Origin: a virus
Reading direction: 5' to 3' (one strand)
IMG/VR virus record: IMGVR_UViG_3300042898_005321
Coordinates: 1 to 21,135 of that record
DNA length: 21,135 nucleotides
Shown here: positions 1,076 through 19,945 of the stretch, piece by piece
Numbering within the stretch: the first letter of the stretch is position 1
Layout of the letters: every line of letters begins with the position of its first letter
Translations under genes and position numbers: made by a program
Notes under the pieces: model-generated
Told to the model about the DNA's origin: nothing
Databases searched by the model: none
The model's input: the letters and a program-made list of their open reading frames with translations, nothing else

Positions 1076-1090
1076 TGTATAACTAAAGAA

Positions 1091-1771
1091 ATGGAATCGA
1101 AAAAAGAAACTGTTGATGCTCTTATTGTTCCTGACGAAGGCCCTAAGAAACCATCAAGAATGTTCAGGGATTTGAAAGAAGGCGATAAACCTTTAATGCC
1201 TCTTCCCCCTGACAATATGAATGATATATCTTATCCTCAATTTATGGAACCGAGATGCGCAATTTGCACTTCTCCTTTTCGAGATTTGGTAGAACACGTT
1301 TATTTAGATAGTGGAAAGAAAAATCAATCAGTAATTAGATTTTTCTTACAGTATTTTGATGCACAGATGAACTGGATGCAGATTAATACCCACATGGAAC
1401 AACATTGTGATTTCAAAAAAATCTCAACTTCCGGACTTAAAAATTACGAGCAAAGAGAAGAACTTATTGCTCCTTGGATTTTTCGTGAACATCAATTAGC
1501 CCTTACTGCTTTACTCGTTGAACTTGATGATGTTCGTGGAATTGACTGCTCTAAAAATAATGATATGAAACTGAAAAGAGCAGCAATGGTAGAAAAATTA
1601 ATCTCTAAAATCTTACAATTAAAAGAAGCAAGAGATAATCAAGGAATTTACTCTATAAATATTTTTGAAATTTTAGCTGCCCTTCACGAAAAGATGGATA
1701 GTGAAAATGATAAAAGAATTATTAGGGATGAAATTGTGAATCTACGCAATAAGATTCAACAAGACAATTAA
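1091..1771 (+). CDS. Putative terminase small subunit-like DNA-binding protein
   Basis: This 226-residue protein lies immediately upstream of the large terminase gene; its TAA stop overlaps that gene's ATG by one base. The key region is residues 56-106, with C56-x2-C59 followed by Ser-Pro-Phe-Arg and ending in H101-x3-H105-C106. This fits a pattern I know from phage and bacterial helix-turn-helix proteins, in which a Cys-x2-Cys pair and an H-x-x-x-H ending flank a DNA-binding helix region, presumably binding zinc. The C-terminal half is helical and charged, suited to oligomerisation. Small terminases recognise the packaging start and load the large subunit onto DNA. Position and the putative DNA-binding motif support that role, but the sequence is divergent. 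A sequence TATAAC at 1078-1083 sits just before the start codon. Confidence 0.6.
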   Translation: MESKKETVDALIVPDEGPKKPSRMFRDLKEGDKPLMPLPPDNMNDISYPQFMEPRCAICTSPFRDLVEHVYLDSGKKNQSVIRFFLQYFDAQMNWMQINTHMEQHCDFKKISTSGLKNYEQREELIAPWIFREHQLALTALLVELDDVRGIDCSKNNDMKLKRAAMVEKLISKILQLKEARDNQGIYSINIFEILAALHEKMDSENDKRIIRDEIVNLRNKIQQDN

Positions 1772-3882
1772 TGAGAAAACCTACTCCCGTAAAACAATCT
1801 CCTAACGAATTAAGAAATCAATTATTACAGCAAGCCAATTCAGTAACACAATTATTCAAAGACACAGAATATGCTGAAGAGTTTGTTGATGAAATTGCTC
1901 CTGCTACAAGACAAGAAGTAGCTCCACCACCAAAACCCCCTAAAGATAGATTTAATCCTGATCAAATTGTAGATATCATTACATTTATAGAACATCCTTA
2001 TTTTTGTAATTTAAAACCCTATCCTTGGCAAAAATTAATTCTAAAATGCTTTTATATGGGACAAGAAGGCAATACTAATCTTGTAATAAATGAATCAGAC
2101 AATAAAGAAGACTGCAAAGGTTGTGTTTGGAATTATGTTCAAAAAAATGAAAATAATTTTTTAAAAGCCAGATCAGAAGGAAAACAGTTTAAAACAATTT
2201 TCAATGTTGTAAATTCCCCTTGCCTACAGTGTAAACGTCTTGATAATGAAGTTAGAGAAGAAAGATACAGATATGCCAAAGAAGAAGCAACAAACCCTGA
2301 TGCTGAAAGACAAGTCATAGTATTAGAAACAAGACCAATTATTGATGGTTTTCAAAGTGAAAATGATTTACTTTATTCAGAAGAATTTGATCCAAAGCTT
2401 CGTATGCAAGTTCAAGAAAAATGTACTAAAAGATATAAGTTTGAAGAATTAGTTTTAGTACTTGGTAGACGTTCAGGAAAATCGTTCCTTGTGTCTGCTA
2501 TGGCTCTTTATGAATTGTATAGATTGATTTCTATGGGCCATCCTCAAGCAAGATACGGCTTAATGGAGTTTGATGAAGTTGTTCTTCTAAATGTTGCTCG
2601 TAACGAAGAACAGGCTAAAAAAGCAATCTTCTCTAAGATTAAGCAAACTGTTCTAGCTTCTCCATTTTTTGCACCCTATATTGGCAAAGATACTGAGCTT
2701 GAAATGCGATTCTACACTGAACACGATAGAGAAGAGAATGTAAGAAGAAAAGCAGATAATATCAATCTTTTTGCAGGTTCTTTGGTATTACGATGTGGTT
2801 CTAGCAATGCATCAGGTCTTGTTGGTCTTACTTGCTGGACTATCATTATGGACGAAGTTGCAGCTATGGCAGGTGATAATCCTGACTCTGGTGTTGACTA
2901 TGCTCTTTATGATGATCTAAAACCATCTCTTGCTACATTTGGTAAAGATGGCAAAATGATGCTTCTTTCCAACCCTAAAGGTCCACTTGGTTTGCTTTAT
3001 GATTTACACGAGAATAGGCAAGAAGATCCTACTACTCTTGTGATGAGACTTCCTACTTGGCTTACCAATCCTAATATTGATAAAGAATGGTTAGATAGTC
3101 AGAAGAAAAAAGATCCTCAAGAATTTCAAATGCAGTACGGAGCTGAATTTGGAGCTTCTTCATCAGATCCAATGTTTAATTCCGAAGACGTAGACAGGAT
3201 GTTTGCTTCTATGTCTATGGTGAAAAGAAAAGAAATGGCAGAAGGTCATTTTGATTATTTTTGTCATTTAGATCCAGCTAGAACTTCAGACTATTACGCT
3301 CTTGTAATTGCTCATACTGAAAACATGTATGGTCATATTGGTCCTGACTTTCAACCACTTAAAAGAGTTGTGATTGATCATGTCCATTTTTGGAATCCTA
3401 GAACAAAAAATCAACCTGTTAAAGAAAGTGAAGTTGAAGACTATGTTATCAACTTACACGCTAAATTTAAATTTAAACAAGTTTCTATTGATCAATGGAA
3501 TTCACAGTCATCTTTAATAAAACTGCAATCTATGAGAATTCCAATTGTAGAAAGACAATTCAACAAAGAATATAAAGAAAAGATATATACAGAATTATCA
3601 CAATTAATCAGAGATGATCGAATTGATATTTATGATTTACCTGGTGGAGAATATAGAGATTTAGACAATAAAATTATATCTTTAAATGAAGTTCAAGAAG
3701 CAAAAATTCAATTTTTATTTTTACAAAAGAAATGGAAAGGTAAAAGATATTACATTGAAGCTTTATCGGGATATAAAGATGACATTTGTGATGCGGTGGC
3801 TGCTGTATGTTATGAATGTCTTACATCTAAAATTATGGTTAGATTGCCAAGATCAAAAATGGTCAATTTAAACAGAAGATAA
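1771..3882 (+). CDS. terL: Terminase large subunit (packaging ATPase and nuclease)
   Basis: The 703-residue protein has both parts of a large terminase. The ATPase domain shows an adenine-binding region around YPWQKLILK (residues 84-92), Walker A GRRSGKS at 232-238, Walker B IIMDE at 358-362 and the coupling motif LLSNPKG at 398-404. The RNase H-like nuclease domain shows candidate metal ligands at D501 (HLDPA), D574 (SIDQWN) and D670/D671/D674 (YKDDICDA). The motor translocates DNA through the portal and cuts the concatemer. An unusual feature lies between the adenine motif and Walker A: a roughly 100-residue insertion with C115-x2-C118 and C151-x2-C154, probably a zinc finger. The 50 N-terminal residues are low-complexity and charged. 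Translation is likely coupled to the preceding gene through TAATG. Confidence 0.95.
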   Translation: MRKPTPVKQSPNELRNQLLQQANSVTQLFKDTEYAEEFVDEIAPATRQEVAPPPKPPKDRFNPDQIVDIITFIEHPYFCNLKPYPWQKLILKCFYMGQEGNTNLVINESDNKEDCKGCVWNYVQKNENNFLKARSEGKQFKTIFNVVNSPCLQCKRLDNEVREERYRYAKEEATNPDAERQVIVLETRPIIDGFQSENDLLYSEEFDPKLRMQVQEKCTKRYKFEELVLVLGRRSGKSFLVSAMALYELYRLISMGHPQARYGLMEFDEVVLLNVARNEEQAKKAIFSKIKQTVLASPFFAPYIGKDTELEMRFYTEHDREENVRRKADNINLFAGSLVLRCGSSNASGLVGLTCWTIIMDEVAAMAGDNPDSGVDYALYDDLKPSLATFGKDGKMMLLSNPKGPLGLLYDLHENRQEDPTTLVMRLPTWLTNPNIDKEWLDSQKKKDPQEFQMQYGAEFGASSSDPMFNSEDVDRMFASMSMVKRKEMAEGHFDYFCHLDPARTSDYYALVIAHTENMYGHIGPDFQPLKRVVIDHVHFWNPRTKNQPVKESEVEDYVINLHAKFKFKQVSIDQWNSQSSLIKLQSMRIPIVERQFNKEYKEKIYTELSQLIRDDRIDIYDLPGGEYRDLDNKIISLNEVQEAKIQFLFLQKKWKGKRYYIEALSGYKDDICDAVAAVCYECLTSKIMVRLPRSKMVNLNRR

Positions 3883-5402: not shown

Positions 5403-5413
5403 GGAATAAAATT

Positions 5414-6286: not shown

Positions 6287-6312
6287 ATGGATGCATTAAA
6301 GGAATTTGAGCA

Positions 6313-6342
6313 TTGAATTTAGAAATTTTCTTAATGTATTTT
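6313..6342 (+). promoter_or_regulatory. Weak candidate promoter before the HED-repeat protein
   Basis: TTGAAT (6313-6318) and TATTTT (6337-6342) are separated by 18 bases in the 78-base gap before the gene at 6365. Both boxes are imperfect, and such pairs are common in AT-rich DNA. The gap size and the strong ribosome site that follows (GAGGAG, 6348-6353) make it worth recording. Confidence 0.22.
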
Positions 6343-6364
6343 TTCTTGAGGAGAAAAATTAATT

Positions 6365-7453
6365 ATGGCAGATAGAATTTTCCCAAACAGATTTCAAGAA
6401 GACCCTCTTGATTCTGACTTGGTTTTCCAAGGAATTGATTGGGACAACTTTAACCAAAGATTAGCCGAAGCCAAAGAGGGTAAAGAGACCAAAGGTCTCG
6501 AAGAACTTTTTAATGCTATTGGTGATAAAGAAGTAGATAGATTGCAAGCAAAATCTGGCACTATGTATGCTGGAGATGAAGAAGATGCTGAAGCTATGTC
6601 TGAAGACATGGAAGATGGCGCAATGTATCATAATTCAACCAAAATGGCCAAGAAAGGTATTCCACCTGGTTTAGCTAAGTGGATGGAAGAGAATGGCAAA
6701 GGCAAGAAGAAGTCTAAAGATTCTGATGATGAAGATGATGAAGATCATGAAGATCATGAAGATCATGAAGACCACGAAGATGACGAAGATGATGCAAAGG
6801 GTCCTATGAAGAGAAAAGGTCCTAAAGGCAAGTCTGAAAAGAAAGCTTACCATTTTAACCATGCATCACAATTATCAGCTGAAGCTGTAGAAGCTGCTGT
6901 AGCTGCTGGTGATGAAGATCTTAAAGATGCTATCCTTGCTGCTCGTCATGACAGAAGAGTAAGATTAGCTGGCAAAATTGAGCGCCAAGTTCAAGCCAAC
7001 AAAGAAACTAATGTTAAGCTTGCACAAAGAAGAGCTTACAGAGAAGCATTAGTTCAAAAAGTAGCTGCAAATATGGAAGTTGAAAAAGAAGCAGCTATGG
7101 AAAAAGAATGTGGAGCAAAGTCAGACATGAAAGAAGCTAAAGCATTCTCATCTGCTGCTAGAAAAGCATTTGCTGCTAAAGCTCTTGCCGAAGGTTTTCC
7201 AATCGAATATGTAAATGCTAGATTAGGCGAAACATCAGCTCCTGCAGTTGATAAGTTGTCCAATATCAAGGACGTTCTTGCTTCTGGTCTTGAAACTAAT
7301 GTCAAAGTTGCTGCAGCATCTTCAATGATCAAAGTTGCAACACTTTCAGACGCAGACTATTCCAGAATCGTTGATTACTGGAAGAATGAACTCGGCTATG
7401 GTGATCAAGAGTGGATTGATGCACTCTTTACCAAGAAATACGACAAGAAATAA
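6365..7453 (+). CDS. Acidic, repeat-bearing helical protein, possible internal scaffold or core protein
   Basis: This 362-residue protein has three parts. Residues 1-110 are acidic. Residues about 119-143 form an Asp/Glu/His tract with tandem HED triplets, followed by a basic Lys-Arg-Gly patch. Residues 165-362 are Ala-rich and helical, suggesting coiled coils (for example EAVEAAVAAGDEDLKDAILA). Several KVA-type tetrapeptides occur (KVAA, KVAAAS, KVATLS), similar to the proposed cleavage sites. The composition resembles phage scaffold or core proteins, which are acidic, Ala-rich and helical. A strong site GAGGAG (6348-6353) precedes the ATG by 11 bases, so expression is probably high. No enzyme motif is visible, and the function is inferred from composition and position. 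Confidence 0.8.
   Translation: MADRIFPNRFQEDPLDSDLVFQGIDWDNFNQRLAEAKEGKETKGLEELFNAIGDKEVDRLQAKSGTMYAGDEEDAEAMSEDMEDGAMYHNSTKMAKKGIPPGLAKWMEENGKGKKKSKDSDDEDDEDHEDHEDHEDHEDDEDDAKGPMKRKGPKGKSEKKAYHFNHASQLSAEAVEAAVAAGDEDLKDAILAARHDRRVRLAGKIERQVQANKETNVKLAQRRAYREALVQKVAANMEVEKEAAMEKECGAKSDMKEAKAFSSAARKAFAAKALAEGFPIEYVNARLGETSAPAVDKLSNIKDVLASGLETNVKVAAASSMIKVATLSDADYSRIVDYWKNELGYGDQEWIDALFTKKYDKK
6731..6793 (+). repeat. Seven 9-base tandem units encoding Glu-Asp-(His/Asp)
   Basis: The units are variants of GAAGATCAT in phase with the reading frame: GAAGATGAT, three identical GAAGATCAT, GAAGACCAC, GAAGATGAC and GAAGATGAT. They encode a metal-binding-like acidic His tract. Synonymous changes in the fifth unit show it is not a fresh duplication throughout. 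Confidence 0.85.
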
Positions 7454-7462
7454 TTACATTCC

Positions 7463-7506
7463 TCAAGAAAAGTTGTCCCAGGGTGAAAGCTCTGGGACAT
7501 TCTTGA
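7463..7506 (+). terminator. Long hairpin after the HED-repeat gene
   Basis: An inner stem TGTCCCAG/CTGGGACA (7474-7481 with 7492-7499) and an outer stem TCAAGAA/TTCTTGA (7463-7469 with 7500-7506) form a strong two-part hairpin ten bases after the stop codon. No T-run follows on the + strand, so it may be an mRNA 3'-end stabiliser or processing site rather than a true intrinsic terminator. Confidence 0.5.
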
Positions 7507-7531
7507 AAAGTAAGATCAGGATAAAATAAAC

Positions 7532-8347
7532 ATGAGCAGATTTAGAAAAGTATCAGAAATCGATAATATTCCAACATTTATGGAAAAGAGATTTATTGGC
7601 GCTCAAGTAGAAGTTGAAGAAGATCCATACGCTGAGTTAAAGAGAAATTCAACTGCAAACAGACAATCAATTTCTAAACAAAATATTGGTTTCACAAAAG
7701 AAGCAAACAATATTAATAAGTCTTGGGAAAGAATTCAAGGTGCATCAACATATCAAGATTTGAGAGACACCACAACTGAAGATAGAATTCTTGCTCAAGA
7801 TTTTGGTGCTATTAGAAGAGCTGGTTCACAATTTGATGATGGCGAAACTGCAAGAACTACTACAAGTGGATTGAAAGCATTTTCTTCAGATGACTATATG
7901 AACGCAATGCTTTCTAGATCAGCATCAATTTTCAATCCAGACATGATTTCAATAACAGAAGAATTCTTGAATTCTCAAGCTTCTACAAGTGAACAATCAA
8001 TTATTGAAAATCAAAGAGCAAGAGAAGCAAAAACAACTCGCCATAAAGCTTGGGAAGAAAGCCAACTTAATAACTTAAGACAATCTTCTGTAGTTTCCTC
8101 AAGAGCACATTCAATCTTGAGAACATCTTCAGACAATGAATTCAATTCACAATTTGGAATGATTGATCCATCTGCTCTGGACAATCGTGAAACCATGAGA
8201 ATTGCTAATCAAGAGAAGAATAGAAACGATAGAATGGCTATCAAGAAAAATATCCAAAGTGATATGAACAGCAAATCTCAAATGAGAGCAAAAACTGTCA
8301 ATGAAATTTATAATAGCATTGACATTAATTTTGATGATATTGATTAA
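7532..8347 (+). CDS. Unidentified charged protein
   Basis: This 271-residue protein is rich in Ser, Asn, Gln, Arg and Glu and lacks a recognised domain, signal peptide or membrane segment. Long stretches are low in hydrophobic residues and look like alternating helix and disorder. The C-terminal part (residues about 170-255) is probably coiled coil. AGGA at 7518-7521, ten bases before the ATG, is a plausible ribosome site. Its stop codon overlaps the ATG of the next gene (TAATG), so the two are probably translated together. Position suggests a head-associated or accessory structural protein, without direct evidence. Confidence 0.8.
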   Translation: MSRFRKVSEIDNIPTFMEKRFIGAQVEVEEDPYAELKRNSTANRQSISKQNIGFTKEANNINKSWERIQGASTYQDLRDTTTEDRILAQDFGAIRRAGSQFDDGETARTTTSGLKAFSSDDYMNAMLSRSASIFNPDMISITEEFLNSQASTSEQSIIENQRAREAKTTRHKAWEESQLNNLRQSSVVSSRAHSILRTSSDNEFNSQFGMIDPSALDNRETMRIANQEKNRNDRMAIKKNIQSDMNSKSQMRAKTVNEIYNSIDINFDDID

Positions 8348-9246
8348 TGAATAAACTGTCTCAAACTGAACCACCTCAACAATCTGGCCCAGCTATGGCT
8401 TCAAATCCAGCAAATGGGATTAACAATATTCCTTTAAATGGTGAAAATATTGAAGGTGTAACTAAAGATGAAATGAGACAGTTGATTAAAAAAATCAAAG
8501 CTAGTGATGGTAATTTTAGTGAACTTTCAAATGAAGTTACCCTTACAGCTGACAAAGTGCAAGATAATGATTTACGTCATCAATTAGATAAATTATCTAA
8601 AGCACTTTTAATGTCAAATAATAATGAAACAAGAACAAAAGATCCAATTACTAAAGAATTAGATCCAAGCTATTCTGATATAGCAAATAAGATTGAAGAA
8701 ACTTATTTAGTCGAGGCTAAGAACGTGTACAACAATTCAAAAACAGCACAGGTCAAAAAGAAAAAGAAAACTAGAGGCAATCCATTCCGTGTTTTAATGG
8801 GCAAGGTTGGAAAATTACTTGATCATGGTGTCGATAAAAATGATATTGTTAGATACATTTCTAAACTTAAATATTGGAATAAAGAAACAATTGAACGAGC
8901 TGTAGATATTGTTAAAGAATATAACAAAAAATTAGAGCAAGGCAAAGACAAAGACGATGAAACAAAAAAGAAAGCTAATACTGTTAATCTTTCTGAATCT
9001 GTCAAAATTGCTGCCTTAAATTATGATTCAAAACCTAATTTTGAAAAGAGATCAACACCTGAGTTAATTATGAGAGCTTGCTTCCTAATGGATTTACAAG
9101 ACTATTCTAAAACAACTAAGCAAGGTGACTTTAAAGATGCTGCTGACAAAAAAGGAGTTTCTGAAGAACTCAAGCAAATTAGAACAGCTCTCACAAATAG
9201 AGGTTTTGATAAAGAAGAATTATCAAACTTAGGACTGGGTAAATAA
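8347..9246 (+). CDS. Unidentified helical protein with a basic segment
   Basis: This 299-residue protein is mostly helical and charged. A basic run VKKKKKTRGNPFRVL at about residues 137-151 leads into a segment (KLLDHGVDKNDIVRYISKLK) similar to residues 45-65 of the protein at 279. The basic run would suit contact with DNA or an acidic partner. VKIAALNY, about residues 219-226, is a KIA-type site like others in this region. The gene starts inside the TAATG junction with the previous gene and ends three bases before the next start, so it belongs to a translationally linked group (7532-11436). No enzyme family is recognised. Confidence 0.8.
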   Translation: MNKLSQTEPPQQSGPAMASNPANGINNIPLNGENIEGVTKDEMRQLIKKIKASDGNFSELSNEVTLTADKVQDNDLRHQLDKLSKALLMSNNNETRTKDPITKELDPSYSDIANKIEETYLVEAKNVYNNSKTAQVKKKKKTRGNPFRVLMGKVGKLLDHGVDKNDIVRYISKLKYWNKETIERAVDIVKEYNKKLEQGKDKDDETKKKANTVNLSESVKIAALNYDSKPNFEKRSTPELIMRACFLMDLQDYSKTTKQGDFKDAADKKGVSEELKQIRTALTNRGFDKEELSNLGLGK

Positions 9247-9248
9247 TT

Positions 9249-10901
9249 ATGGACAAGGGATATAAAATCAAAGCTACATACGAAACTCACGATCCTAAAA
9301 AAATTCAAGATATTATGGACAAAAAACCATTGGTCGGTGGCAATGGATTACTTAGCATGCTTCAAGACACTTTGTCAGGTATTGGAGAAGGGGATTCTAT
9401 GCCAATGTCTTCCCCATTTCATGTTTTAGGTATGGATGATTTCGGAGATGATCCCGTTATTTCTGCCTTTAAGAATATGGGCGGACCACAACATATTATG
9501 AAGATAGTAGCTCTTCCAAAAGAAGAAGCACATCATCATTTGCATAAAGCATTAAATACATTAAACAACATAAGACTTGCTGAAGAAAGAAATACTCTTC
9601 GCTATGCTTATATGGCTATTCAAAATTTTATCAACAAAAACAATGAAGCGGCTAAAATGGAAAGAGTTGCTTACAAGAATAATAGTCAATCTTCAGGCTA
9701 TTGGCAAATTGAAGCTATTAAAGCTATTGATAAGCTAAATAAATTTGCTTCTAATAACAAAATTAGTAAATTAAACAGTGCAAGAAATATTGTACTTTCA
9801 GGCAATAAAGATAAATCCATAAAAGTTGCAAATTTTATGCATAATTGGTACTCAGAAATAACTCCTAAAGAAAATAGAAGAGTTGCATATACTACTCTTT
9901 CAACACAAGCAAATGAACCATATTTGCTGTGTCCTAAAGGAAAATTTCAAGGCTATAAAGCTCCAGTGCCTATGGAAGTTTCAAAATGTCGTGAAAATTG
10001 TATTGACTCAAGAGTTGATAAAGACGGACAAGTAACTTGTGCATATCAAGATTGGTTAAAAGTCGCATTCCAATCTCATGATGAAGTAATGGCCAGATTA
10101 GATGTTCATAAGCATCCTGACAACGAAGCTAATGCTCTTGAACTTAAAGAAGGTGAAAGATCCAAGAAACTTACCGAAGGTGAGATTGGATTTGAAGCTA
10201 GATTTGACAACTCAGATAGAGGCGCAAATAAAATCAGAGGCAAGCAAAATGTCGATGATTCAATGGAAAAACAATTGTCAGATGCCAAACAATCAAGCTA
10301 TGGGCATCAACAAGGTGAAAAACCAGTCATGCGCCCTAAGCAAGCTCAATCTGATTCTTTAAAAACTATTGATTCTCAACTTCCAAGAAAAGAACAAAAG
10401 GGCAGTGAATATCTTGAAGCTTTGTTGAGAAAATTAAATGGTAAAGAATCAGTAGCTGACGAAGCAATGGAAGAACAACTTGACTCTGATGGACTTTATA
10501 CTCATCGTGGTGAAATGGAAAAATCTTATGCTGACCAATTAAATGTTAAAAGCAAAGATCCCATTAATTACAGAGATGAGTTAAATAAAAATTTCGATGA
10601 GCCAAAGAATTCTATTATTCATCAATTAGATAAAACTGCATCAAAGAAAGAACTCAACCAAGAACAAATTCTTAACAGCACAAGAAAAAAGAATGTTGTT
10701 GATACTCCTAAAGATAATCAATTAGAAGACAAAAGAGAAAACAAGAAGATCAAAGTCAATATTGAAACTTTATTAAATGATGAAGATGATGACAGTTTTG
10801 GTCATCAATTTTCAGATGATGATCTCAAGAAATTTGCTGAAGAACTTGGCTTAGACTACATCATGGAATCTAAAAGAGAAGAATACGACGATGTGGTATA
10901 A
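9249..10901 (+). CDS. Unidentified protein with a four-cysteine motif
   Basis: This 550-residue protein has a helical N-terminal half and a strongly polar, Lys/Glu/Asp/Gln-rich C-terminal half that is probably disordered. The most conserved-looking region is residues about 226-272, with C228, C247-x3-C251 and C264: LLCPKGKFQGYKAPVP, then VSKCRENCIDSR, then GQVTCAYQDWLKVA. Four cysteines in this spacing could bind zinc or an iron-sulfur cluster. KTAS occurs at 462-465, and KVAN and KVAF occur earlier. The final residues are acidic. The gene overlaps the next by 11 bases. The family is unknown to me; a head or packaging role is suggested only by its position upstream of the portal gene. Confidence 0.8.
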   Translation: MDKGYKIKATYETHDPKKIQDIMDKKPLVGGNGLLSMLQDTLSGIGEGDSMPMSSPFHVLGMDDFGDDPVISAFKNMGGPQHIMKIVALPKEEAHHHLHKALNTLNNIRLAEERNTLRYAYMAIQNFINKNNEAAKMERVAYKNNSQSSGYWQIEAIKAIDKLNKFASNNKISKLNSARNIVLSGNKDKSIKVANFMHNWYSEITPKENRRVAYTTLSTQANEPYLLCPKGKFQGYKAPVPMEVSKCRENCIDSRVDKDGQVTCAYQDWLKVAFQSHDEVMARLDVHKHPDNEANALELKEGERSKKLTEGEIGFEARFDNSDRGANKIRGKQNVDDSMEKQLSDAKQSSYGHQQGEKPVMRPKQAQSDSLKTIDSQLPRKEQKGSEYLEALLRKLNGKESVADEAMEEQLDSDGLYTHRGEMEKSYADQLNVKSKDPINYRDELNKNFDEPKNSIIHQLDKTASKKELNQEQILNSTRKKNVVDTPKDNQLEDKRENKKIKVNIETLLNDEDDDSFGHQFSDDDLKKFAEELGLDYIMESKREEYDDVV

Positions 10902-11436
10902 ACAAGTTTTGTCCCAATTTGGCGGTGGTGTCATTAGCCCAGGACAAAATGAGTCAAAAGATACGGTAGATAGTCAGTCTGGTTTCGGAATTGATGGCAT
11001 AAGTGATGTAGATAATCAACCAGCTGGACTCTATGATGAACTTTCTGGAATTCTAGAAAAAATGGGTAAGAGTCTAGATGAATATTACCGCATGAATCAA
11101 GAACAACAAAAAGAAATCTGGAATCTTTTAGTCGAACGTCCTCATAGAATGAATATGGATAATAATGGACAGTATATTATTTCTCCTCAATCTGCATCTA
11201 CTGAAGCTAGAAGACACTCTCCATTTCATGAGAATCCAGAAGATACACCATTAGAAACTCAACTTAGAGGCTCGCAACAAGAAAACAATAACAGAGATCC
11301 TCAAAGCATGGCTTCAACTGAAAAAGGAAATAGTTTTCAACATTTCAAGAATGGTGAAGGTTATTATCAAGCGTCTAAAGGCAAACAAGATCCAATTCTT
11401 TTCGGCAACAAACCTTCTAATCAAACTTGGTATTAA
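10891..11436 (+). CDS. Unidentified small polar protein
   Basis: This 181-residue protein starts MWYKQVLSQFGGG, inside the last codons of the previous gene in another frame. A central helix (LYDELSGILEKMGKSLDEYY, then RMNQEQQKEIWNLLVERP) at residues about 47-84 probably oligomerises. The rest is rich in Gln, Asn, Ser, Gly and Pro and looks disordered. There is no catalytic motif, signal peptide or membrane segment. It is the last gene before the portal, separated from it by 33 bases. The Met-Trp-Tyr beginning also occurs in the minus-strand fragment at 137. Confidence 0.75.
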   Translation: MWYKQVLSQFGGGVISPGQNESKDTVDSQSGFGIDGISDVDNQPAGLYDELSGILEKMGKSLDEYYRMNQEQQKEIWNLLVERPHRMNMDNNGQYIISPQSASTEARRHSPFHENPEDTPLETQLRGSQQENNNRDPQSMASTEKGNSFQHFKNGEGYYQASKGKQDPILFGNKPSNQTWY

Positions 11437-11462
11437 GTTATATATTTTTAGAACGGTATAAT
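11433..11462 (+). promoter_or_regulatory. Candidate promoter abutting the portal start codon
   Basis: A perfect TATAAT lies at 11457-11462, only seven bases before the ATG at 11470. A weak TTAAGT at 11433-11438 has an 18-base spacer. If used, transcription would start at or next to the ATG and give a leaderless mRNA. No Shine-Dalgarno site is present, which fits that idea but does not prove it. Confidence 0.35.
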
Positions 11463-11469
11463 ACATGTT

Positions 11470-13824
11470 ATGGCAAATAGAACATCATTGGCTTCTGCTA
11501 TTCGAACAGCAGCAACACAAGTATCAGGAGCATCATCACCCACTGCAACTGTAGACAGAAATTATGCAAGCAGCAGAATTGGTCTAGGATTAGGTCCAAG
11601 CGTAACAAGAACTGCAAGCGTCAATACAGTTACTACAGCTCCTAACTTCTATTCACCATTTCTTACTCCATCATCTTTTCAAATCCCAAATGCTCGTCGT
11701 GAAGTTTATCTTTGGGCAAACTGGTGGAGAAACAATGAGCCAAAAATTGCTGCAGCCATCAATTTTTACACTAACTATCCTTTTTCTGGATGGAAGTTAG
11801 AGTGTTCTTCTTCTTATGTAAAAGATTATTTTGAAAAGCTAGTAGAATCACTTAATTTTCAAAAATGGCTACCAGAAATTTCTAAAACATATCACTTGTT
11901 AGGTGATTCCTTTGTTCTCCTTTCATTAGATTGTCCACATTGCCATGGTTCTAACTGGGATGAAGACAAAAATCAAGAATGTCAACATGATGGTGCTACT
12001 TGGAAGTCAATTTCTATACTTAATCCTGATTCTGTAATTAAGAGTCCAGGTATGATTGATCAACCTGGAAGTTATGCATATCGTCCATCTGCAGAAGAAA
12101 TTAGAATTGTCAATGAACGACATCCTAAAGAAATTTATGATTCTATTCCTGACAATATTAAAAAAATGATTGTTCAGGGTAATCCAATTAAACTGAACAC
12201 TATATCTATTCACCATTTCAAATATGGATCAAATCCTTGGGAAGATTATGGAATTTCTATGATCAGACCATTGTTCCCAATTCTGACATACAAAGACAAA
12301 TTAAGACAAGCTCAATATATGATTGCTGAGCGTCTTATCTTACCAATCAAGGTTGTAAAAATTGGTAGTGATACAAGACCAGCATCTCAAGAAGATATTG
12401 ATAATGTCCAAGATGAGTTAGCATCTATTGCTAATGATCCTAACTTAACACTTGTTACTCACCACAACTTTGATCTCGAGTGGTATGGAGCTACTGGAAA
12501 AATTCATCCTCTTACTGGTGAATTTGAATTAATTGAGCAAGAAATCCTCGATGGTGTTATGTTGAACAAAGCACTTTTGAATGGTGAGGGACCAACATAC
12601 GGTAATGCCCAAGTTGGACTTCTTGCAATGGCTCAAAGATTAGAGACATTTAGAAGAGAAGTTGCACACTGGATTGAACAAAATGTCTTTATGCCAGTTG
12701 CAAAATGGAATGGTTTTGTAATCGAAGGTGAAAGAGGACAGGACGAAATAGTCTATCCTAAAATCAAATTTGACGATCTTCAATTACGTGATGACACTGG
12801 TAAATTGCAAATGCTTGTCACTGCAAATCAAAATGGAGTTATTTCAAATGTTTCTCTTATTGAAGCTTTTGGTTTAGACTCAGACCAGGAAATTGAAAGA
12901 TTGAGATTTGAACAAGGTGCAAACTTTGTAAATGATCAAAGCTTTGGCACTCCAAATGTTTCATTAAGTTTCCAAAGTGGTGGCGTAACTGGACAAGGCT
13001 TTGCGGCTTCGTCTCCAGATATGTCTGGTGCAGGTATGGCTCCTCCACCTGCTGACTTATCTGTTGGTGGTGGGGCGCCTCCTGCAGCTCCAGCTCCAGC
13101 TGGTGCTCCTGCTCCTACTGCAGATGTAATGAACAGATTTTACAAAGTTGCTAGCTCAACCATTAATGAAATTTATATGGAAAGAATTGAAGCAAAGAAT
13201 TCTGGAGTAAGAACTGCAAGCAAGAAAATTAAATCTGCAGCACATGAAGGTTTCTTAAAATCACTAACACCAGTAACAGGTAGAGGTTCTTTGGGTCCTT
13301 TACCAGATGAATATGATGGATTGTATGGTCAATTACAATCCCCCTTTATTGGTGGAGATAATTCACATCCATTGAACAACTATGCATTAGAACAAATTCA
13401 TCAATTCGCTTCTAATGAAAATGAATCAATCAAAAAATACGCAAAAAAGAAAGTAGACATTTCTCAACAACCTAAAATGTTTACTAATTTGGAAAAGAAA
13501 CTTTATGGATTGACTATGTCTTTAAATATGCCTTTTCCGCTTTACGCTCAGTATTCTGCTGGTCCAGCAATGGATTATCAATTAGATGCTGCAATTCCTA
13601 ATCTTAAGATTGGCATTGAAGCTGATGGTGAAATTTGGCACAATAATCCAGACAAAATCGCTAAAGACAAGCGTAGAGATTCTGAATTAGCTGCTAATGG
13701 TTGGATTATAATTAGATTTACTGACAAAGAAATTAATGATCACCCACAAGATTGTTTGAATGTTTTAATTAAAGTAATTAAGAAGCGAACAGGTATGGGT
13801 GAGGGTAATTCTGAATATCTATAA
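11470..13824 (+). CDS. Portal protein fused to a C-terminal DUF559/Vsr-like nuclease domain
   Basis: The product has 784 residues. Residues about 75-480 are portal-like: WWRNNEPKIAAAINFYTNYP, then LLGDSFVLLSLD, then a clip/stem region, then a long helix ending RLETFRREVAHWIEQNVFMP. A Cys-His insert (C155-x2-C158 and C171-x-H173) lies in the wing part. After a Pro/Ala/Gly-rich linker (residues 515-550) and a helical segment, residues about 670-772 match DUF559/very-short-patch-repair-like folds: D706 (YQLDAA), then IGIEADGEIWH with E717, D719 and H724, then RDSELAANGWIIIRFTDKEI. These are the expected PD-(D/E)xK-type residues. The portal forms the DNA entry vertex. RTAS occurs at 47-50 and at 581-584, the latter between the portal and nuclease parts. 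The portal call is strong; nuclease activity is inferred. Confidence 0.88.
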   Translation: MANRTSLASAIRTAATQVSGASSPTATVDRNYASSRIGLGLGPSVTRTASVNTVTTAPNFYSPFLTPSSFQIPNARREVYLWANWWRNNEPKIAAAINFYTNYPFSGWKLECSSSYVKDYFEKLVESLNFQKWLPEISKTYHLLGDSFVLLSLDCPHCHGSNWDEDKNQECQHDGATWKSISILNPDSVIKSPGMIDQPGSYAYRPSAEEIRIVNERHPKEIYDSIPDNIKKMIVQGNPIKLNTISIHHFKYGSNPWEDYGISMIRPLFPILTYKDKLRQAQYMIAERLILPIKVVKIGSDTRPASQEDIDNVQDELASIANDPNLTLVTHHNFDLEWYGATGKIHPLTGEFELIEQEILDGVMLNKALLNGEGPTYGNAQVGLLAMAQRLETFRREVAHWIEQNVFMPVAKWNGFVIEGERGQDEIVYPKIKFDDLQLRDDTGKLQMLVTANQNGVISNVSLIEAFGLDSDQEIERLRFEQGANFVNDQSFGTPNVSLSFQSGGVTGQGFAASSPDMSGAGMAPPPADLSVGGGAPPAAPAPAGAPAPTADVMNRFYKVASSTINEIYMERIEAKNSGVRTASKKIKSAAHEGFLKSLTPVTGRGSLGPLPDEYDGLYGQLQSPFIGGDNSHPLNNYALEQIHQFASNENESIKKYAKKKVDISQQPKMFTNLEKKLYGLTMSLNMPFPLYAQYSAGPAMDYQLDAAIPNLKIGIEADGEIWHNNPDKIAKDKRRDSELAANGWIIIRFTDKEINDHPQDCLNVLIKVIKKRTGMGEGNSEYL

Positions 13825-13850
13825 TTACCAAATCGTTTGTCACTGTACAA

Positions 13851-13882
13851 TAAACCCGTCGATTTCGACGGGTTTAAATTTT
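13851..13882 (+). terminator. Intrinsic terminator after the portal gene
   Basis: An 11-base-pair stem (13851-13861 with 13866-13876; core AACCCGTCG/CGACGGGTT) encloses a four-base loop ATTT and is followed by AATTTTACAG. The GC-rich core and T-rich tail support rho-independent termination 26 bases after the portal stop codon. Confidence 0.8.
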
Positions 13883-13897
13883 ACAGGTTTTAATAGG

Positions 13898-13926
13898 TTG
13901 AAAATAGAAGAAATCCTATTGATAAC
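13898..13926 (+). promoter_or_regulatory. Candidate promoter for the protease gene
   Basis: TTGAAA (13898-13903) and GATAAC (13921-13926) are 17 bases apart and lie directly downstream of the portal terminator, where a new promoter is expected. The match to the sigma-70 consensus is five of six and four of six. Confidence 0.4.
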
Positions 13927-13949
13927 TTCATTTTTTAAGGATTGAATAT

Positions 13950-16900
13950 ATGTACAAGGTTGCAAAAGGAGGGGCTATTACTATAAATAGCTTCCTCAAC
14001 GAAAATGACCGAAATATAGCTAGAGATTATATCATAAAGACTGCTTCTTCAAATATGCGAGAAGCTGCAAAGATTGGTCTTCAATCACTCTATGCTGATC
14101 CAAAAGAAGTACTCGAAAAATACAAAGATTTCGACATTGTTAAAGAAATGCAAGCTCGTAAAGGTGCAAAACTTTTATGGGTAAGAGCTAGAGCAATTGA
14201 CGCTGATGTCGTAAATGCTAATGGAGACTTGTTTTCAAAAGAAGAACTTCTCAAGGAAGTTGAAATCAAAGGTCAAAAAATCCCGTCATATAAAACATTT
14301 GAAGGTGTGCCAATTTACACAAACCACAAAAATGATGATATTGAACAAGCTAAGGGTATGGTTGTTTATGCAGAATGGGATGAAAAGGAAGATTGTGTAT
14401 ATTGTACTTTCTTTGTAGATGAAGAAGCTTATCCTGATATTGCTAGAAATATTCGTACTGGTGTAATTCATGATGTCTCCATGGGTGCAAGTGTTGAATG
14501 GGGTGTTTGTTCAATTTGTGGAAATAAAGCATACACTGAAAAAGATTACTGTGAACACCTTAAAAAGTACAAAGGAAAAACACATCCTGAGTCTGGCAAA
14601 AAATCATATGAAAAGAACTACGGCGTAAAGTTTATTGAATTAAGCTGCGTAGGAGATGGTGCTTTTGAATCTTGTGAAATTCAAGAAATTTATGATGTTG
14701 ATGATGTTTTAGATGCTGCAATGAATTTAGAAAAGAAAGCAAATGAGCTTTCTTCAAATATTGTTTTAGCACTTCACGAAACATCATCTATTCCTCAACA
14801 TAGAGCAGAATACGAAAACTGCCTAAGTGTAGCAAATTTCACAGCGAAAACTGCAGTTAGATTAGCACAACAAGCTGGAACTCTTGTTGGTGGACCTTTA
14901 CTGGCTGGAGCAGGAGCGAATCAAAACTCAACCGTTTCTGCAGTATTGACAGCTCTTGGTATTGATCCAGCATCAGGATTGAATATTCTTGACTTAATCA
15001 ATTTATCATTAAACTTTTTGGAAGTTGCTGTGATGAATATGTTTGCTAGAAAAGATAATGTTGATTTAGGACACGTTGGAAAAATCACTAAATCCATGGC
15101 AGAACTTCAATCTACTATGCAAGACATGATTGACGATGGTGTTGACGTTGGTAGTGGGCAAAGACCACAACAAATCAATCAACCTCAAAATATGCAACAA
15201 GGACAAGCACCACAAGCTTCTCCAATGAATGCCAATATTGGTTTGGCAAATTATGCACCAACTGAATCTGTAGGAAAAGTGATGGACCTTACACTTCCTG
15301 GAGATCAAGACAATCAAGTTGGAGGCGGTGTTGCGTTAGCCTCTAGCGTTCACAATTTGGTGTGGGCTTCAAGAGATGGCAAGAGAGAAGTTTTTGCTAG
15401 CTCTCAAAACAGTTCATCTTCCAATAAAATTTTGAACTTGACTAAAAATATTTTAGATTTAAAAAATAATTTAAATAACAATTCTCAAGTACAAATAAGT
15501 ATTGATAGTGTCATTAGAATTGCTAATGAAAGAAGCAAAAATATAAAAACAAATACGCCTTTCATGGCGGGGAGCAGAAATCAAATGGATCACTTTGCAA
15601 AGATTGCATCAGAGCAAAGAAAAAAACTTGCTGCTGCAGTTACAATCGATTTTAAAGTCGAGGATAATGCAGGTAATAGAGTTGTTCTTTCTACTGATGG
15701 TTCAATCACAGGTTACACAAATGGAAAAAGAACTGCTTGGGTACCTATCCTTAATGAAAACCAACTTGGTTTAATGGAAAACGGACAAGGAACAAGAGTT
15801 GCTGCTGAATTACTCAAGGACTATTCACAATTTGTCAAGACTGCTTTACTTGATGTCAAAGAGAGACTCGATGACAGAGAAAGCCAACTTGATGAAGTAA
15901 GAAATGGTGAGTCATATGATAACTTGGCCACTGGTGTCAAGAGCAAGAATACTGGTGTAGATCAAAACGTTCGTGAATTACAACTCAAATCAAAGCAAAC
16001 TGGTGCAAGCCAAGATGCTGTAAGAGAAATTCTTCTTGGTGATGCTGGACTTTATGGAAGAAGAGTAAAAGACGAAGAAGTTTGCAAGTCCTTAACTGAA
16101 TTGGTAGATGAAGTAACTCATGGTGTTCCTACTGAAGTTTTAGAAAAGCAATTAGCTTGTTGCCGTGCAGAGGGTAGTGCAAGTGCTCACGAAATTATGG
16201 CAGCTACAATTAATGCATTAGGCAAGGCTGTTATTTCTTCACTAGAAACTCCTAAAACAATTGTTAGAATTGCACAAACATTAACTGAAGAACCAATGCT
16301 TCCTGAAATGATTGGAACTGCTGCTGCTGGTACTGATATGGAAGCAGATAAGGCAGAAAAGGCTGATTTCTTTGGTGGAAATGCTGAGCCAGAAAATTCA
16401 GTTTCTGCTGTTATTAAGCAATTAGGCGCTGCTGTAACTTCTGAAATTACTGCTCAAGATCTTGCTGATGCACTTTCAGTTGCAGTTGAAGAAGGCGAAA
16501 TGACCAAAGAAGGCGTTTCAAGAATTGCTGAACTTCTTATGGGTCAAGCATCTGTTCCTGAAGAAGGATTAGATGTTGAAACTGCACCTTCAAAAAATGA
16601 AGAGTTAAAGTCTGCACTTATGTCAGCCTTAGATTCTGATGCTGATCTTATTTCTAAAGACGATCTGAAGTCTGCAATTTCTGCAATGGCAATGTCTTCA
16701 AAAGAAACCGGGACAACTCCTGATGAAGTAGTTGACTCTGTTGAAGCAATGCCTGAAAAACAATTAATGGCTGCTATTGATAGAGCCAAAACTGCTACAG
16801 CTACTGACGGAAGATTGAGAGCTAGGGCTAGAAGAGAGTTTTGGGGTGTTAAGACTGCTTCTACAAAAAACATTTCTGATAATGTTATCGGATGGTTGGC

Positions 16901-18089
16901 AGACTATTCCACAAATTTTGGTATTAGCACTAGAAGAATTGCCAAGGCTGCAAAAAGACTCTGTGAAGAATTTGAAGTTGCAGAAAAGTTAGTTGCCAAA
17001 GCGGTTGCTGCAGCTGAAAGAACTGCTGGAATGACTGTTACTCAAAGTAAGTCAGAATGCATCAGATTTATTTGCAGAGCTGAAGATTTAGATGGTATGC
17101 AACCTGGTGATTCCAATTTCGATGATTCATTCAAACAAAAAGCAATTGAAGTTCTTCAAGGACATGGATTCCAAGTTGATCCAGGAACATTCTCTTTCAC
17201 AGACTTGATTGTTTCAGAAAATGGTGATGTTACTGCTACAGTTTCGACATCTACATCAAAAGCATTCAAAGCTGACGAACTAGAAGGTGAACTTCAAGCT
17301 GAAGAACCAGCTGAAATGCCTGTAGTAATGACTGAAGGTGCAAGAATAGCTAGAAAGAACAGAAGAGACAATATTTTAGCTAAATACGCACAAGCTGCAC
17401 CTGGCATGGGCGCTCCTGCTCCTGTTGGTCCAGCTGCTGGTCCTGTTGATCCAGGTTTAGGTGCTGGTCCAGCTGCTGCAGGTGGTGATTTAGGAATTTC
17501 ATCACTTACTGGTGGTCCAGACATGAACGAAGCTGGTGATATGGACGCAATGTCTGAACCAGGTGAAAAGAAACCGTGGGGATCTGTCTGCCCAGTTTGT
17601 GGTGCAGATGATGTAAACATTTCTGAATCAAATGCTGACTGCCAAAGCTGTGGTACTACATACAAGATCCTTCAACAAATTGAATTAATTTCAATGGGTG
17701 ACAAGGGCAAATCTTCACCAGAAGAAGAACCTATGGGACTTGGTCCAGACACTGGGTTAGGTATGGCAACTGCACCTACAGAAATGCCTGCTGCTAATCC
17801 TGCAGCTCCAGGTATGGGACCAGTAGCATCTGATATCAAAACAATGATCAGATTATCAGCTACAGTTGATTCTGACGTGTATTTGAAAACTGCATTACCA
17901 ACCTTTGATAGAACAAAAGAATCAATGCTTCCTGTCGGTATGGTTTGTCCATCTTGCGGAGATAGACAAGCTCATAAAGTCAAAAGTAATACATTCTGCT
18001 ACAAATGTGGAAATTATTCAAGAACCACAGTACAAGCTTCTAAGAAGGATCCATCAAAACTTGATGTATCAATTACTTGGATTGATTAG
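13950..18089 (+). CDS. Prohead maturation protease with a very long C-terminal extension
   Basis: The product has 1379 residues. Residues about 70-250 form an HK97 gp4/herpesvirus assemblin-type serine protease domain: GVPIYTNHKNDDIEQAKGMV with likely catalytic H126, IHDVSMGASVEW with likely S177, and FIELSCVGDGAFES, which matches the usual 'E-hydrophobic-S-x-V' ending. A zinc insert (C187-x2-C190, C201-x-H203) follows the active-site serine. The remaining 1100 residues are mainly helical and acidic, with Pro/Gly/Ala linkers (around 1150-1200) and two zinc ribbons (C1214/C1217/C1231/C1234 and C1333/C1336/C1350/C1353). KTAS at 30-33 and 968-971 and KTAL at 630-633 may be self-cleavage sites. 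The long tail could serve as scaffold. AAGGA at 13937-13941 supports the start. It is much longer than usual family members. Confidence 0.85.
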   Translation: MYKVAKGGAITINSFLNENDRNIARDYIIKTASSNMREAAKIGLQSLYADPKEVLEKYKDFDIVKEMQARKGAKLLWVRARAIDADVVNANGDLFSKEELLKEVEIKGQKIPSYKTFEGVPIYTNHKNDDIEQAKGMVVYAEWDEKEDCVYCTFFVDEEAYPDIARNIRTGVIHDVSMGASVEWGVCSICGNKAYTEKDYCEHLKKYKGKTHPESGKKSYEKNYGVKFIELSCVGDGAFESCEIQEIYDVDDVLDAAMNLEKKANELSSNIVLALHETSSIPQHRAEYENCLSVANFTAKTAVRLAQQAGTLVGGPLLAGAGANQNSTVSAVLTALGIDPASGLNILDLINLSLNFLEVAVMNMFARKDNVDLGHVGKITKSMAELQSTMQDMIDDGVDVGSGQRPQQINQPQNMQQGQAPQASPMNANIGLANYAPTESVGKVMDLTLPGDQDNQVGGGVALASSVHNLVWASRDGKREVFASSQNSSSSNKILNLTKNILDLKNNLNNNSQVQISIDSVIRIANERSKNIKTNTPFMAGSRNQMDHFAKIASEQRKKLAAAVTIDFKVEDNAGNRVVLSTDGSITGYTNGKRTAWVPILNENQLGLMENGQGTRVAAELLKDYSQFVKTALLDVKERLDDRESQLDEVRNGESYDNLATGVKSKNTGVDQNVRELQLKSKQTGASQDAVREILLGDAGLYGRRVKDEEVCKSLTELVDEVTHGVPTEVLEKQLACCRAEGSASAHEIMAATINALGKAVISSLETPKTIVRIAQTLTEEPMLPEMIGTAAAGTDMEADKAEKADFFGGNAEPENSVSAVIKQLGAAVTSEITAQDLADALSVAVEEGEMTKEGVSRIAELLMGQASVPEEGLDVETAPSKNEELKSALMSALDSDADLISKDDLKSAISAMAMSSKETGTTPDEVVDSVEAMPEKQLMAAIDRAKTATATDGRLRARARREFWGVKTASTKNISDNVIGWLADYSTNFGISTRRIAKAAKRLCEEFEVAEKLVAKAVAAAERTAGMTVTQSKSECIRFICRAEDLDGMQPGDSNFDDSFKQKAIEVLQGHGFQVDPGTFSFTDLIVSENGDVTATVSTSTSKAFKADELEGELQAEEPAEMPVVMTEGARIARKNRRDNILAKYAQAAPGMGAPAPVGPAAGPVDPGLGAGPAAAGGDLGISSLTGGPDMNEAGDMDAMSEPGEKKPWGSVCPVCGADDVNISESNADCQSCGTTYKILQQIELISMGDKGKSSPEEEPMGLGPDTGLGMATAPTEMPAANPAAPGMGPVASDIKTMIRLSATVDSDVYLKTALPTFDRTKESMLPVGMVCPSCGDRQAHKVKSNTFCYKCGNYSRTTVQASKKDPSKLDVSITWID

Positions 18090-18094
18090 TATGC

Positions 18095-18127
18095 ATATTA
18101 GTGAGGGATTTATTCCCTCACTAATAT
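18095..18127 (+). terminator. Long hairpin after the protease gene, without a T-run
   Basis: A 14-base-pair perfect stem (18095-18108 with 18114-18127; ATATTAGTGAGGGA/TCCCTCACTAATAT) with a TTTAT loop begins five bases after the stop codon. The following bases are CTTAAAAAAA rather than Ts, so it may be a partial terminator, an mRNA 3'-end stabiliser or a processing site. Confidence 0.55.
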
Positions 18128-18241
18128 CTTAAAAAAAGGTGTAAAAACAATTTATCTAGAAATTAAAAAAAAGTTAACAAATAACTATTTTATAGATTCT
18201 TTGATAAAAGATTTTATTTTATTAAGGGAAGCAGCATAAAA

Positions 18242-19945
18242 ATGAATAAAAATTCGAATAAAGCCAATCAGGTGAGATTTGCAGCAATGAGATTAGCTGA
18301 AATTAATGCAACTGATAAAGAAGATCTTATGAACTGCGCTTCTGACATGCAAAAAACAGCATCATTGGAAACAAACGAAGCTGTTTTAGTAGCAAAAGCA
18401 ATTAGAGCTAAGTATCTTCCAAACATTGCAAGACAAGCTGGTCTTGATGTTTCAAATTTAGACCTTGATAATGGCAAAGAGACTGTTGACTTCGCAAACG
18501 ATGAATCTGACGATGATGAAGACGATATGGAATTTCATCACTTTGAGAGTGATGATAATTCAGATGATGTAGAAGACGATGACATGTCTGATGAAGACAT
18601 GGATGACGAAGACGAAGTAGAAGATAGTGATGATGTCGCCACTTTTGAGATTGAAGTTCCCGCTGATATGGTTGACCAAGCACAAAAAGCTGTGCAAAAG
18701 GCGCTAGATAATCTTCTTGGCGGAGATGATGATTCTGATGAAGATGATGATGAAGATGTCACTCATTTTAACGATGATGATGATATGGATTCCGAAGATG
18801 AATCAGATGATGACGAAGACAATGAAAACCAATTTATGAAAAAAAGCAACGAGGTTAGATCAATGACTAAACAAGCATTGGCTGAGCGCAAGGCACAGAG
18901 AGAGGCTCTCTTGAGAAGAGCAGAAAGAGAAGAAATTCTCAAGAAGATTGCTTCAGAAGAAGAGAATTATCCAGCATCAGCCTCATTTAAGTATAACGAA
19001 GATATGGTTGACATGAAGGGTGAAGTTGAATACCCAAGCATGACAATGGAAGGCGGTGAGGGTAACTCACTCAAGGAACAAAATCCAACATGGGCTGAAC
19101 AAAAAGTTCCTACAATGAATCCAGGTTCATTGGAATTTCCTTCAGTCACAAAACCTAGTAAATTTGAAGGTTCTGGCGATGGCTCTTTAGAGTACACCGT
19201 TGATTGGGATCATTTAGAAAATCCTTCTGAAGGATTAGAAGATGTTGATCATCCTCATATTCCAACCCAAATGCCTTCTATGCCACACAAGACCACCAAA
19301 ACAGTTGCCGCTTCAAAGGAAGAAGATCATGAAGTTGAGTGTACCTCATGTGGTAAATCAATGAGAATGACCGAAGCAGCTATGAATGATGAAACAACTA
19401 GATGTGCAAATAAAGATTGTCCAACAAATGCTGAATCAAAAAATGAAGAAGATGAGGATGAGGATGTCAAGGAAGCTCAAACAGTAAGTGTCCCTGATGT
19501 CAATAACAAATTAATAGGCGTTGGAAATGCTCAAAAGCAAATGAAAGGTCTTCAAGAAAACATTAAAAACACTGGTGAACAATTATCGCAAAACGCATCT
19601 CTTGACTTAGCAAGAATCAAAACTTCCTATAGCTGTGCTACTAAATTAGCATTAGCTGGAATTATTACTTCTGAGGAAGTTGATTCATATGCTGAACAAA
19701 TGATCAATGATGGTCTTAAGTCTGATTCAATGATCAGACAAACCAAACTCTTACTTAAATCGGCACAATCTTCAACTGAAAGAGTTGTTGCAGCTGCTGC
19801 TGAAAGAATGAGTACTAGAACCGCTTCTACACTAGGCGTATCTACATCTCCTGCACTAAGTGGTGGATTATCCAACAACAGTGCAGCTCTTGACATCCAG
19901 GGTGCTCTTAAGGGTACTTGGACAATGCCAAAAATCGAGGACTAA
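18242..19945 (+). CDS. Acidic zinc-finger protein between protease and capsid genes, probable scaffold or core protein
   Basis: This 567-residue protein occupies the usual place of a scaffold gene. Residues about 85-200 are dominated by Asp and Glu (for example DDVEDDDMSDEDMDDEDEVE), interrupted by a helical segment. A basic helical segment follows (LAERKAQREALLRRAEREEI). Residues 260-350 are Pro/Gly/Glu-rich. A likely zinc finger at 367-393 has C367-x2-C370 and C388-x4-C393. The C-terminal 140 residues are helical, with an Ala-rich end. KTAS at 38-41 and RTAS at 526-529 would trim both ends if they are maturation sites, leaving the acidic centre. AAGGGAA (18224-18230) is the ribosome site. 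Scaffold proteins hold capsid subunits during assembly and are removed later; the role here is inferred from position and composition. Confidence 0.8.
   Translation: MNKNSNKANQVRFAAMRLAEINATDKEDLMNCASDMQKTASLETNEAVLVAKAIRAKYLPNIARQAGLDVSNLDLDNGKETVDFANDESDDDEDDMEFHHFESDDNSDDVEDDDMSDEDMDDEDEVEDSDDVATFEIEVPADMVDQAQKAVQKALDNLLGGDDDSDEDDDEDVTHFNDDDDMDSEDESDDDEDNENQFMKKSNEVRSMTKQALAERKAQREALLRRAEREEILKKIASEEENYPASASFKYNEDMVDMKGEVEYPSMTMEGGEGNSLKEQNPTWAEQKVPTMNPGSLEFPSVTKPSKFEGSGDGSLEYTVDWDHLENPSEGLEDVDHPHIPTQMPSMPHKTTKTVAASKEEDHEVECTSCGKSMRMTEAAMNDETTRCANKDCPTNAESKNEEDEDEDVKEAQTVSVPDVNNKLIGVGNAQKQMKGLQENIKNTGEQLSQNASLDLARIKTSYSCATKLALAGIITSEEVDSYAEQMINDGLKSDSMIRQTKLLLKSAQSSTERVVAAAAERMSTRTASTLGVSTSPALSGGLSNNSAALDIQGALKGTWTMPKIED

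Follow-up and report, generated by a model that had tools for sequence, protein, structure and literature searches.

Comparisons of sequences and predicted structures confirmed that one open reading frame (ORF) of the window, i.e., of the whole 21,135-nucleotide stretch analysed here, encodes a portal protein (core at residues ~71–480) with a predicted nuclease domain at residues 668–776. The preliminary description had put portal and nuclease into one open frame, and this is borne out by an ORF of 784 amino acids; its assignment of positions 13477–13785 to residues 670–772 of ORF 11470–13824 was correct. Judged by its model, the domain is a complete nuclease of the restriction type, of the Vsr/EDxHD/DUF559 kind, with predicted activity. 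Both halves belong to known families; the new element is a predicted virion nuclease which forms part of the portal itself and which the maturation protease apparently sets free. As the best explanation we favour, tentatively, that the predicted nuclease travels on the portal, would be freed by this protease and would be used after ejection on the DNA of the host or of rivals.

The coordinates of the features are collected in Table 1. The fusion ORF sits between the genes for the large terminase subunit (TerL) and a protease fusion, in a cluster of head genes. An assembly artefact was rejected, since the identical fusion was found across many contigs. An ORF at 20665–21135, open at the end of the window, resembles by eye the start of a major capsid protein and has RTAL near its N-terminus.

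Table 1. Features of the portal-nuclease ORF and its neighbours in the window.
Feature	Position	Strand	Basis
Terminase large subunit, upstream, common head-gene cluster	1771..3882	+	phrog_2 6.5e-27
Portal-nuclease fusion ORF, 784 aa	11470..13824	+	Portal_Mu and DUF559 above Pfam cut-offs; phrog_16240 portal 7.3e-32
RTAS 47–50, candidate N-terminal maturation site	11608..11619	+	low-pLDDT segment 1–70; [KR][^P]A[SQ] in residues 1–63 of 35/46 portals
Portal core, residues ~71–480	11680..12909	+	largely ordered in full model, low confidence in places; portals of known structure matched by Foldseek
Linker 481–636, Ala/Gly/Pro-rich at 490–556	12910..13377	+	pLDDT <50 at 481–587 and 591–622; composition; fast divergence
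KVAS 559–562, candidate linker cleavage site	13144..13155	+	K/R 559 in 44/46, A561 in 44/46, S562 in 39/46
RTAS 581–584, candidate linker cleavage site	13210..13221	+	K/R 581 in 43/46, A583 in 40/46, S584 in 33/46
Predicted nuclease domain (Vsr/EDxHD/DUF559 type), residues 668–776	13471..13797	+	model with pLDDT 86.6; VIA-align matches
E675, counterpart of Vsr E25	13492..13494	+	alignment; invariant in 46/46
D706, E717, D719, H724, D733, D737, active-site-type residues	13585..13680	+	Vsr alignment; each invariant in 46/46
Head maturation protease fused to long region, 1379 aa, presumed cutter	13950..18089	+	phrog_18299 1.4e-20, residues 82–242

The portal half was recognized both by its sequence family (Portal_Mu of Pfam, 32.2 bits against a cut-off of 23.9) and by its fold. 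The AlphaFold model of the full protein, computed from a shallow alignment of 35 sequences and with a mean pLDDT of 61, is mostly ordered at residues 71–480 and 637–778, and pLDDT is below 50 at residues 1–70, 481–587 and 591–622. Foldseek gave 116 matches to this model at E ≤ 0.001 (best 2.3e-9), and the best 50 of the 116 are portal or neck entries of phages, GTA or archaeal viruses. Matches to solved portals include those of lambda (4.0e-8), T4 and HFTV1 (1.4e-7 each); TM values are about 0.3 when normalized by the length of the query and about 0.5 by that of the target. The nearest annotated portal is gp14 of Bacillus phage G, with 28.4% identity over residues 1–486; it likewise ends in a tail rich in Pro and Gly, whereas phage G has no nuclease near the portal or anywhere in its record. 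In the distant portal of Virus Rctr197k (L211:5557–7941), too, there is a long linker rich in Gly, Pro and Ala, but the C-terminal extension beyond it is a different one without a Pfam match; from this example, docking of further domains at the C-terminus may be general among portals.

A DUF559/Vsr-like C-terminal domain, as had been suggested from the letters, was recovered by the family searches with a DUF559 score well beyond chance. PF04480 (DUF559), with a cut-off of 20.6, scored 29.2 bits for the entire protein and 32.1 bits for its C-terminal 204 residues; MTES_1575 REase stayed below its cut-off of 38.2 for the entire protein (36.7 bits) and exceeded it for the C-terminal piece (38.5 bits). 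Searches of the PDB found 3r3p with the single sequence (4.5e-4), and 3hrl (7.4e-6) and 3r3p (1.3e-5) with a profile. The preliminary description had made its proposal depend on a structure prediction, and a fold of the restriction-endonuclease type was indeed found, with matches to I-Bth0305I, NGO0050 and Vsr. The model of the nuclease piece (mean pLDDT 86.6, from a shallow alignment of 17 sequences) has the order helix, three strands, helix, strand, helices, and was matched by Foldseek to 3r3p (1.5e-4) and 1vsr (5.4e-4). With VIA-align the best match was 3hrl, the DUF559 protein NGO0050 (Z 13.9, rmsd 1.6, 92 aligned), followed by I-Bth0305I, 3r3p (Z 13.6, rmsd 2.6, 97 aligned) and Vsr, 1cw0 (Z 11.6, rmsd 2.3, 102 aligned); the remaining rows had Z values of 10.5 or less, with mitoribosomal proteins first among them.

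Each of these three relatives differs from the domain of the window in some respect. NGO0050 resembles it in family, the DUF559 score being above the cut-off, and most closely in structure, but among annotated phage records 38 matched the nuclease, and none of these is labelled as a portal; they are labelled helicase, endonuclease or hypothetical, or carry no label. I-Bth0305I, an EDxHD enzyme, shares the fold and, in sequence, the stretches E-x-[DN]-G and K-D-K-R; it is a mobile enzyme encoded by an intron, whereas the domain in the window ends a portal protein and has been passed on together with it. Vsr (1vsr, 1cw0) shares the fold and has counterparts of its E25, D51 and H69 in E675, D706 and H724. 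Identification as a Vsr repair enzyme was nevertheless rejected, as TIGR00632 gave only 13.5 and 18.2 bits, far below the cut-off of 97.85, and a setting of mismatch repair is not evident. For the domain, PADLOC returned a homing endonuclease model (1.7e-5), a weak match to PDC-S37 (0.0061) and nothing else.

The residues D706, E717-x-D719-G720 and H724 and the segment RDSELAANGWIIIRF (736–750) are present as had been noted before. In a MAFFT alignment with Vsr of E. coli K-12, E25, D51, H69 and D97 stand opposite E675, D706, H724 and D737; we take E25, D51 and H69 to be catalytic residues of Vsr. Conservation was followed in an alignment of 46 portals, i.e., the one of the window and 45 others with identities down to 39%, from which truncated or duplicate portals were omitted, as were six portals with inteins (L201, L203, L204, L205, L207 and L208); the latter six were inspected by eye. 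Seven residues of the nuclease (E675, D706, E717, D719, H724, D733 and D737) are invariant in all 46. Distances in the core and in the nuclease are correlated with r = 0.96, and the median divergence relative to the core is 1.37-fold for the nuclease and 3.4-fold for the linker (491–600). Values of dN/dS were 0.011–0.071 for the nuclease in 16 pairs and 0.017–0.049 for the core, where 15 of the 16 pairs were computable; they are rough, since dS is above 1, i.e., saturated, in many pairs, and place both core and nuclease under strong purifying selection. Taken together, the invariant residues, the correlation and the low dN/dS values speak for one ancient fusion, the function of which has probably been maintained and which has been inherited together with the portal.

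A search for other portals with the same fusion, recommended in the preliminary description, turned up many. Three overlapping scans of IMG/VR yielded 68, 66 and 75 loci. Only the scan with 66 loci gives a fair count, as it used patterns of the core alone; those with 68 and 75 loci are biased to carriers of the nuclease, because their patterns lay partly or wholly in the C-terminal part. Among the 66 core-only loci the nuclease was present in the same ORF in 58, the contig ended before it in seven, and one had an in-frame stop. In this last case, L125, whose contig also yielded L058 and L199, the stop is a TGA within the linker, and the nuclease downstream of it is intact; this could be genuine or a sequencing error. 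On the same contig, at about 9500–12500 of L058, the protease gene adjoining the portal seems to bear an intein. Over all scans, 190 of 205 core ORFs had the nuclease, 12 ran off the contig end and the other three are from this single contig; these figures count loci of one contig repeatedly and correspond to 57 distinct C-terminal sequences. A profile of the nuclease had a single match per record, in the portal frame, in 11 of 11 IMG/VR records searched.

Distant nuclease matches with 36–47% identity (L201–L208) are C-termini of portals as well and form a sister clade. Its portals L201, L203, L204, L205, L207 and L208 have ORFs of 1092–1659 amino acids with apparent inteins inside the core, two by eye in L201 and three in L208; in Pfam searches Intein_splicing and LAGLIDADG_3 were above cut-off for L207, and LAGLIDADG_3 was found for L201. 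The closest non-portal relative found lies in L209:1–1335, where a DUF559-type domain (49.5 bits) is situated inside an apparent intein (Intein_splicing 34.4 bits, just below the cut-off of 35.8); the flanks of this gene look MuF-like by eye, and it is not a portal. A scan of genome contigs gave ten short weak matches (31–44% identity), of which L227 is by eye a different protein. Whole records of Bacillus phage G, Tunturi_5 and LR745208 had zero matches to the nuclease profile, and the surroundings of the portal had no nuclease match in these three, in Rctr197k or in Vibrio D69. Annotated phage records that matched the portal numbered 223, and coverage of the query reached 80% in none of them. 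The longest relative measures 379 kb, which indicates a clade of giant phages; its portal core is about 28% identical to that of phage G, and the family is seen here solely through environmental DNA.

The segment between the two halves contains candidate sites for processing. RTAS at 581–584, proposed earlier as a cleavage site between portal and nuclease, is present there, within the stretch of pLDDT <50 at 481–587, and is probably disordered; its reading as a plausible protease site gained in strength, since RTAS belongs to a motif, [KR]xA[SQ], which is specific for head proteins in three relatives. Over the 46 portals, matches to the strict pattern [KR]TA[SAG] numbered 42 in the N-terminal segment, from 29 rows, and 23 in the linker, from 23 rows; the nuclease had a single match and the core none. 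What speaks against a straightforward reading is that the looser pattern [KR].AS also matches the ordered core, 45 times over 43 of the 46 rows, with 6.2 expected; the core match of the window is RPAS 303–306.

The motif was first chosen from this window, and [KR].AS was then tested on the relatives G001, G005 and G004, which are homologous and not independent, by comparing the head cluster with other genes over 180 kb each, about half of each record. Head genes of G001 contained 19 matches against 5.3 expected by shuffling, other genes 22 against 18.7 (Fisher 1.1e-6); the corresponding values were 21 against 6.5 and 16 against 23.8 for G005 (1.5e-8), and 18 against 4.8 and 23 against 19.1 for G004 (6.2e-6). 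With the strict pattern, enrichment in head genes was significant for G001 (13 matches, p 5.3e-8) and G005 (5 matches, p 0.007) and not for G004 (3 against 0.8 expected, p = 0.13). When 13 patterns were compared, [KR].A[SQ], a form picked after viewing the alignments of the relatives, reached z values of 8.8, 8.1 and 9.7 in the three head clusters, and the other 12 remained at or below 3.4; S and Q were prominent after [KR].A, and R, K, then V preceded xA[SQ]. Sites of the type [KR][^P]A[SQ] numbered 7, 9 and 9 in the protease fusions of G001, G005 and G004, and 0, 0 and 1 in TerL. From the head genes of the window (279–19945) and those of the three relatives, [KR]xA[SQ] seems to be the site at which head proteins of the clade are generally matured.

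Of the 46 portals, 41 contain a [KR][^P]A[SQ] site between core and nuclease, in the linker; the rows without one are L032, L053, L067, L202 and L206. By its sequence the linker has what is expected of a putative substrate of the maturation protease, namely a motif common to head proteins at a domain border, and it is probably cut by this protease at the candidate sites in the clade of the window. In the sister clade (L201–L208) a site between core and nuclease was found only in L207; since the nuclease is kept there and the site is mostly missing, release at [KR]xA[SQ] would not be required in that clade. A prohead protease of a giant phage that cuts its portal has a precedent in SPN3US, where gp245 cuts many head proteins, including the portal gp81, at the short motif AXE (PMC10052503). 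The SPN3US portal loses N-terminal propeptides in this way, whereas in the window the predicted motif is [KR]xA[SQ] and a cut in the linker would free a nuclease.

The sequence of events which we tentatively prefer would be the following. The nuclease would be borne by the portal C-terminus on a flexible linker, and with twelve portal subunits in the ring, about twelve copies would reach the prohead. The head maturation protease would then, most likely, cut the linker in the clade of the window between A and [SQ] of the motif (559–562, 581–584), leaving nuclease fragments of about 22.5 kDa enclosed with the genome. These could enter the cell with the ejected DNA, where cutting of host or rival DNA would be the most likely use. 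In known portals the C-terminal crown points toward the capsid interior. With a C-terminus facing the lumen, the nuclease most likely lies within the head instead of at the motor face. A role in packaging termination, considered in the preliminary description, is weakened by the expected location on the lumen side. The lumen side and the sites in the linker together favour use after ejection. Counting against this use, DNA methylation does not appear to be a general shield for the phage genome, since a PF01555 methylase was found in only two of nine relatives.

Also against such a cargo, the domain is uniform, with a rate of evolution only slightly above that of the core, unlike the variable MuF toxins. 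This slow, uniform evolution and the retention of the domain in a sister clade mostly without linker sites favour a task in packaging or head closure, and it is possible, if rather unlikely, that the nuclease serves head morphogenesis: it would trim or nick DNA during packaging, headful completion or head closure in the manner of T4-like gp4, and the cut in the linker would only mature the vertex. In T4, gp4 is a virion-linked nuclease of the restriction-endonuclease fold which is needed for packaging (PMC7824862), and the TnsA-like family of gp4 (PF08722) was found in none of nine relatives searched. T4 gp4 differs in being a separate gene of the TnsA-like family (PF08722, 2e-21), and kinship with it was rejected, as hhalign against gp4 gave a probability of 0.2% over 7 columns and the portal had no PF08722 match. 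Against morphogenesis stand the expected position of the portal C-terminus on the lumen side, away from the motor, and the ability of phage G, Tunturi_5 and LR745208 to package similar or larger genomes without a match to the domain in their records. The nuclease motifs of TerL in the window also look intact by eye, so that the portal nuclease would not be a simple replacement of the terminase nuclease, an idea which was rejected.

That the domain does not cut and has a structural or regulatory part (DNA binding, DNA anchoring, assembly) is improbable; mitoribosomal and FASTKD4 RAP-type proteins, which are not thought of as nucleases, are among its fold matches, but against it stand the seven residues of the active-site type, invariant over 46 portals with identities down to 39%. 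Least probable is that the portal gene is fused to a selfish domain of a homing endonuclease, which would persist by driving the spread of its allele among co-infecting phages: I-Bth0305I is among the closest folds, PADLOC applied the label of a homing endonuclease, L209 has the same type of domain within an apparent intein and the sister-clade portals are rich in inteins, but the distribution is vertical and uniform (58 of 66 loci, r = 0.96) instead of the sporadic presence in introns, inteins or free-standing genes typical of such elements, and alleles without nuclease were unseen in the core-only finds, save for truncated contigs and the one in-frame stop. An origin of the domain from a homing endonuclease is plausible, given the fold of I-Bth0305I and the apparent intein of L209.

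Among the systems compared, the MuF polymorphic toxins of temperate phages resemble the preferred arrangement in that a head protein near the portal carries a C-terminal effector, often a nuclease, and the toxin domains vary (PMC5576092). There the effector is variable, whereas in the family of the window the portal itself is the carrier and the effector is uniform. The MuF domain PF04233 was absent from the portal and from all 12 records searched, nine of them relatives; an impression by eye that gp15 of phage G is a MuF protein was not upheld in the domain search. Searches of the open-access literature in PMC, a scope outside which most subscription papers lie, revealed no report of a portal with a nuclease, and a portal-nuclease fusion is not described in passages from PMC7824862, PMC3943268, PMC5576092, PMC3482391, PMC10052503, PMC12908700 and PMC12363816.

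The portal could possibly, though this is doubtful, act as a dosing device, with about twelve nucleases per capsid that would be freed by the protease and injected with the genome against host or rival DNA, a route distinct from that of MuF toxins and of internal proteins of the T4 type. If the nuclease is encapsidated, it becomes testable how a phage can store it together with its own DNA, whether DNases are among the proteins injected by giant phages and whether a portal can act as a carrier of cargo. The predicted maturation motif [KR]xA[SQ] should also provide a testable map of head processing for an uncultured clade of giant phages.
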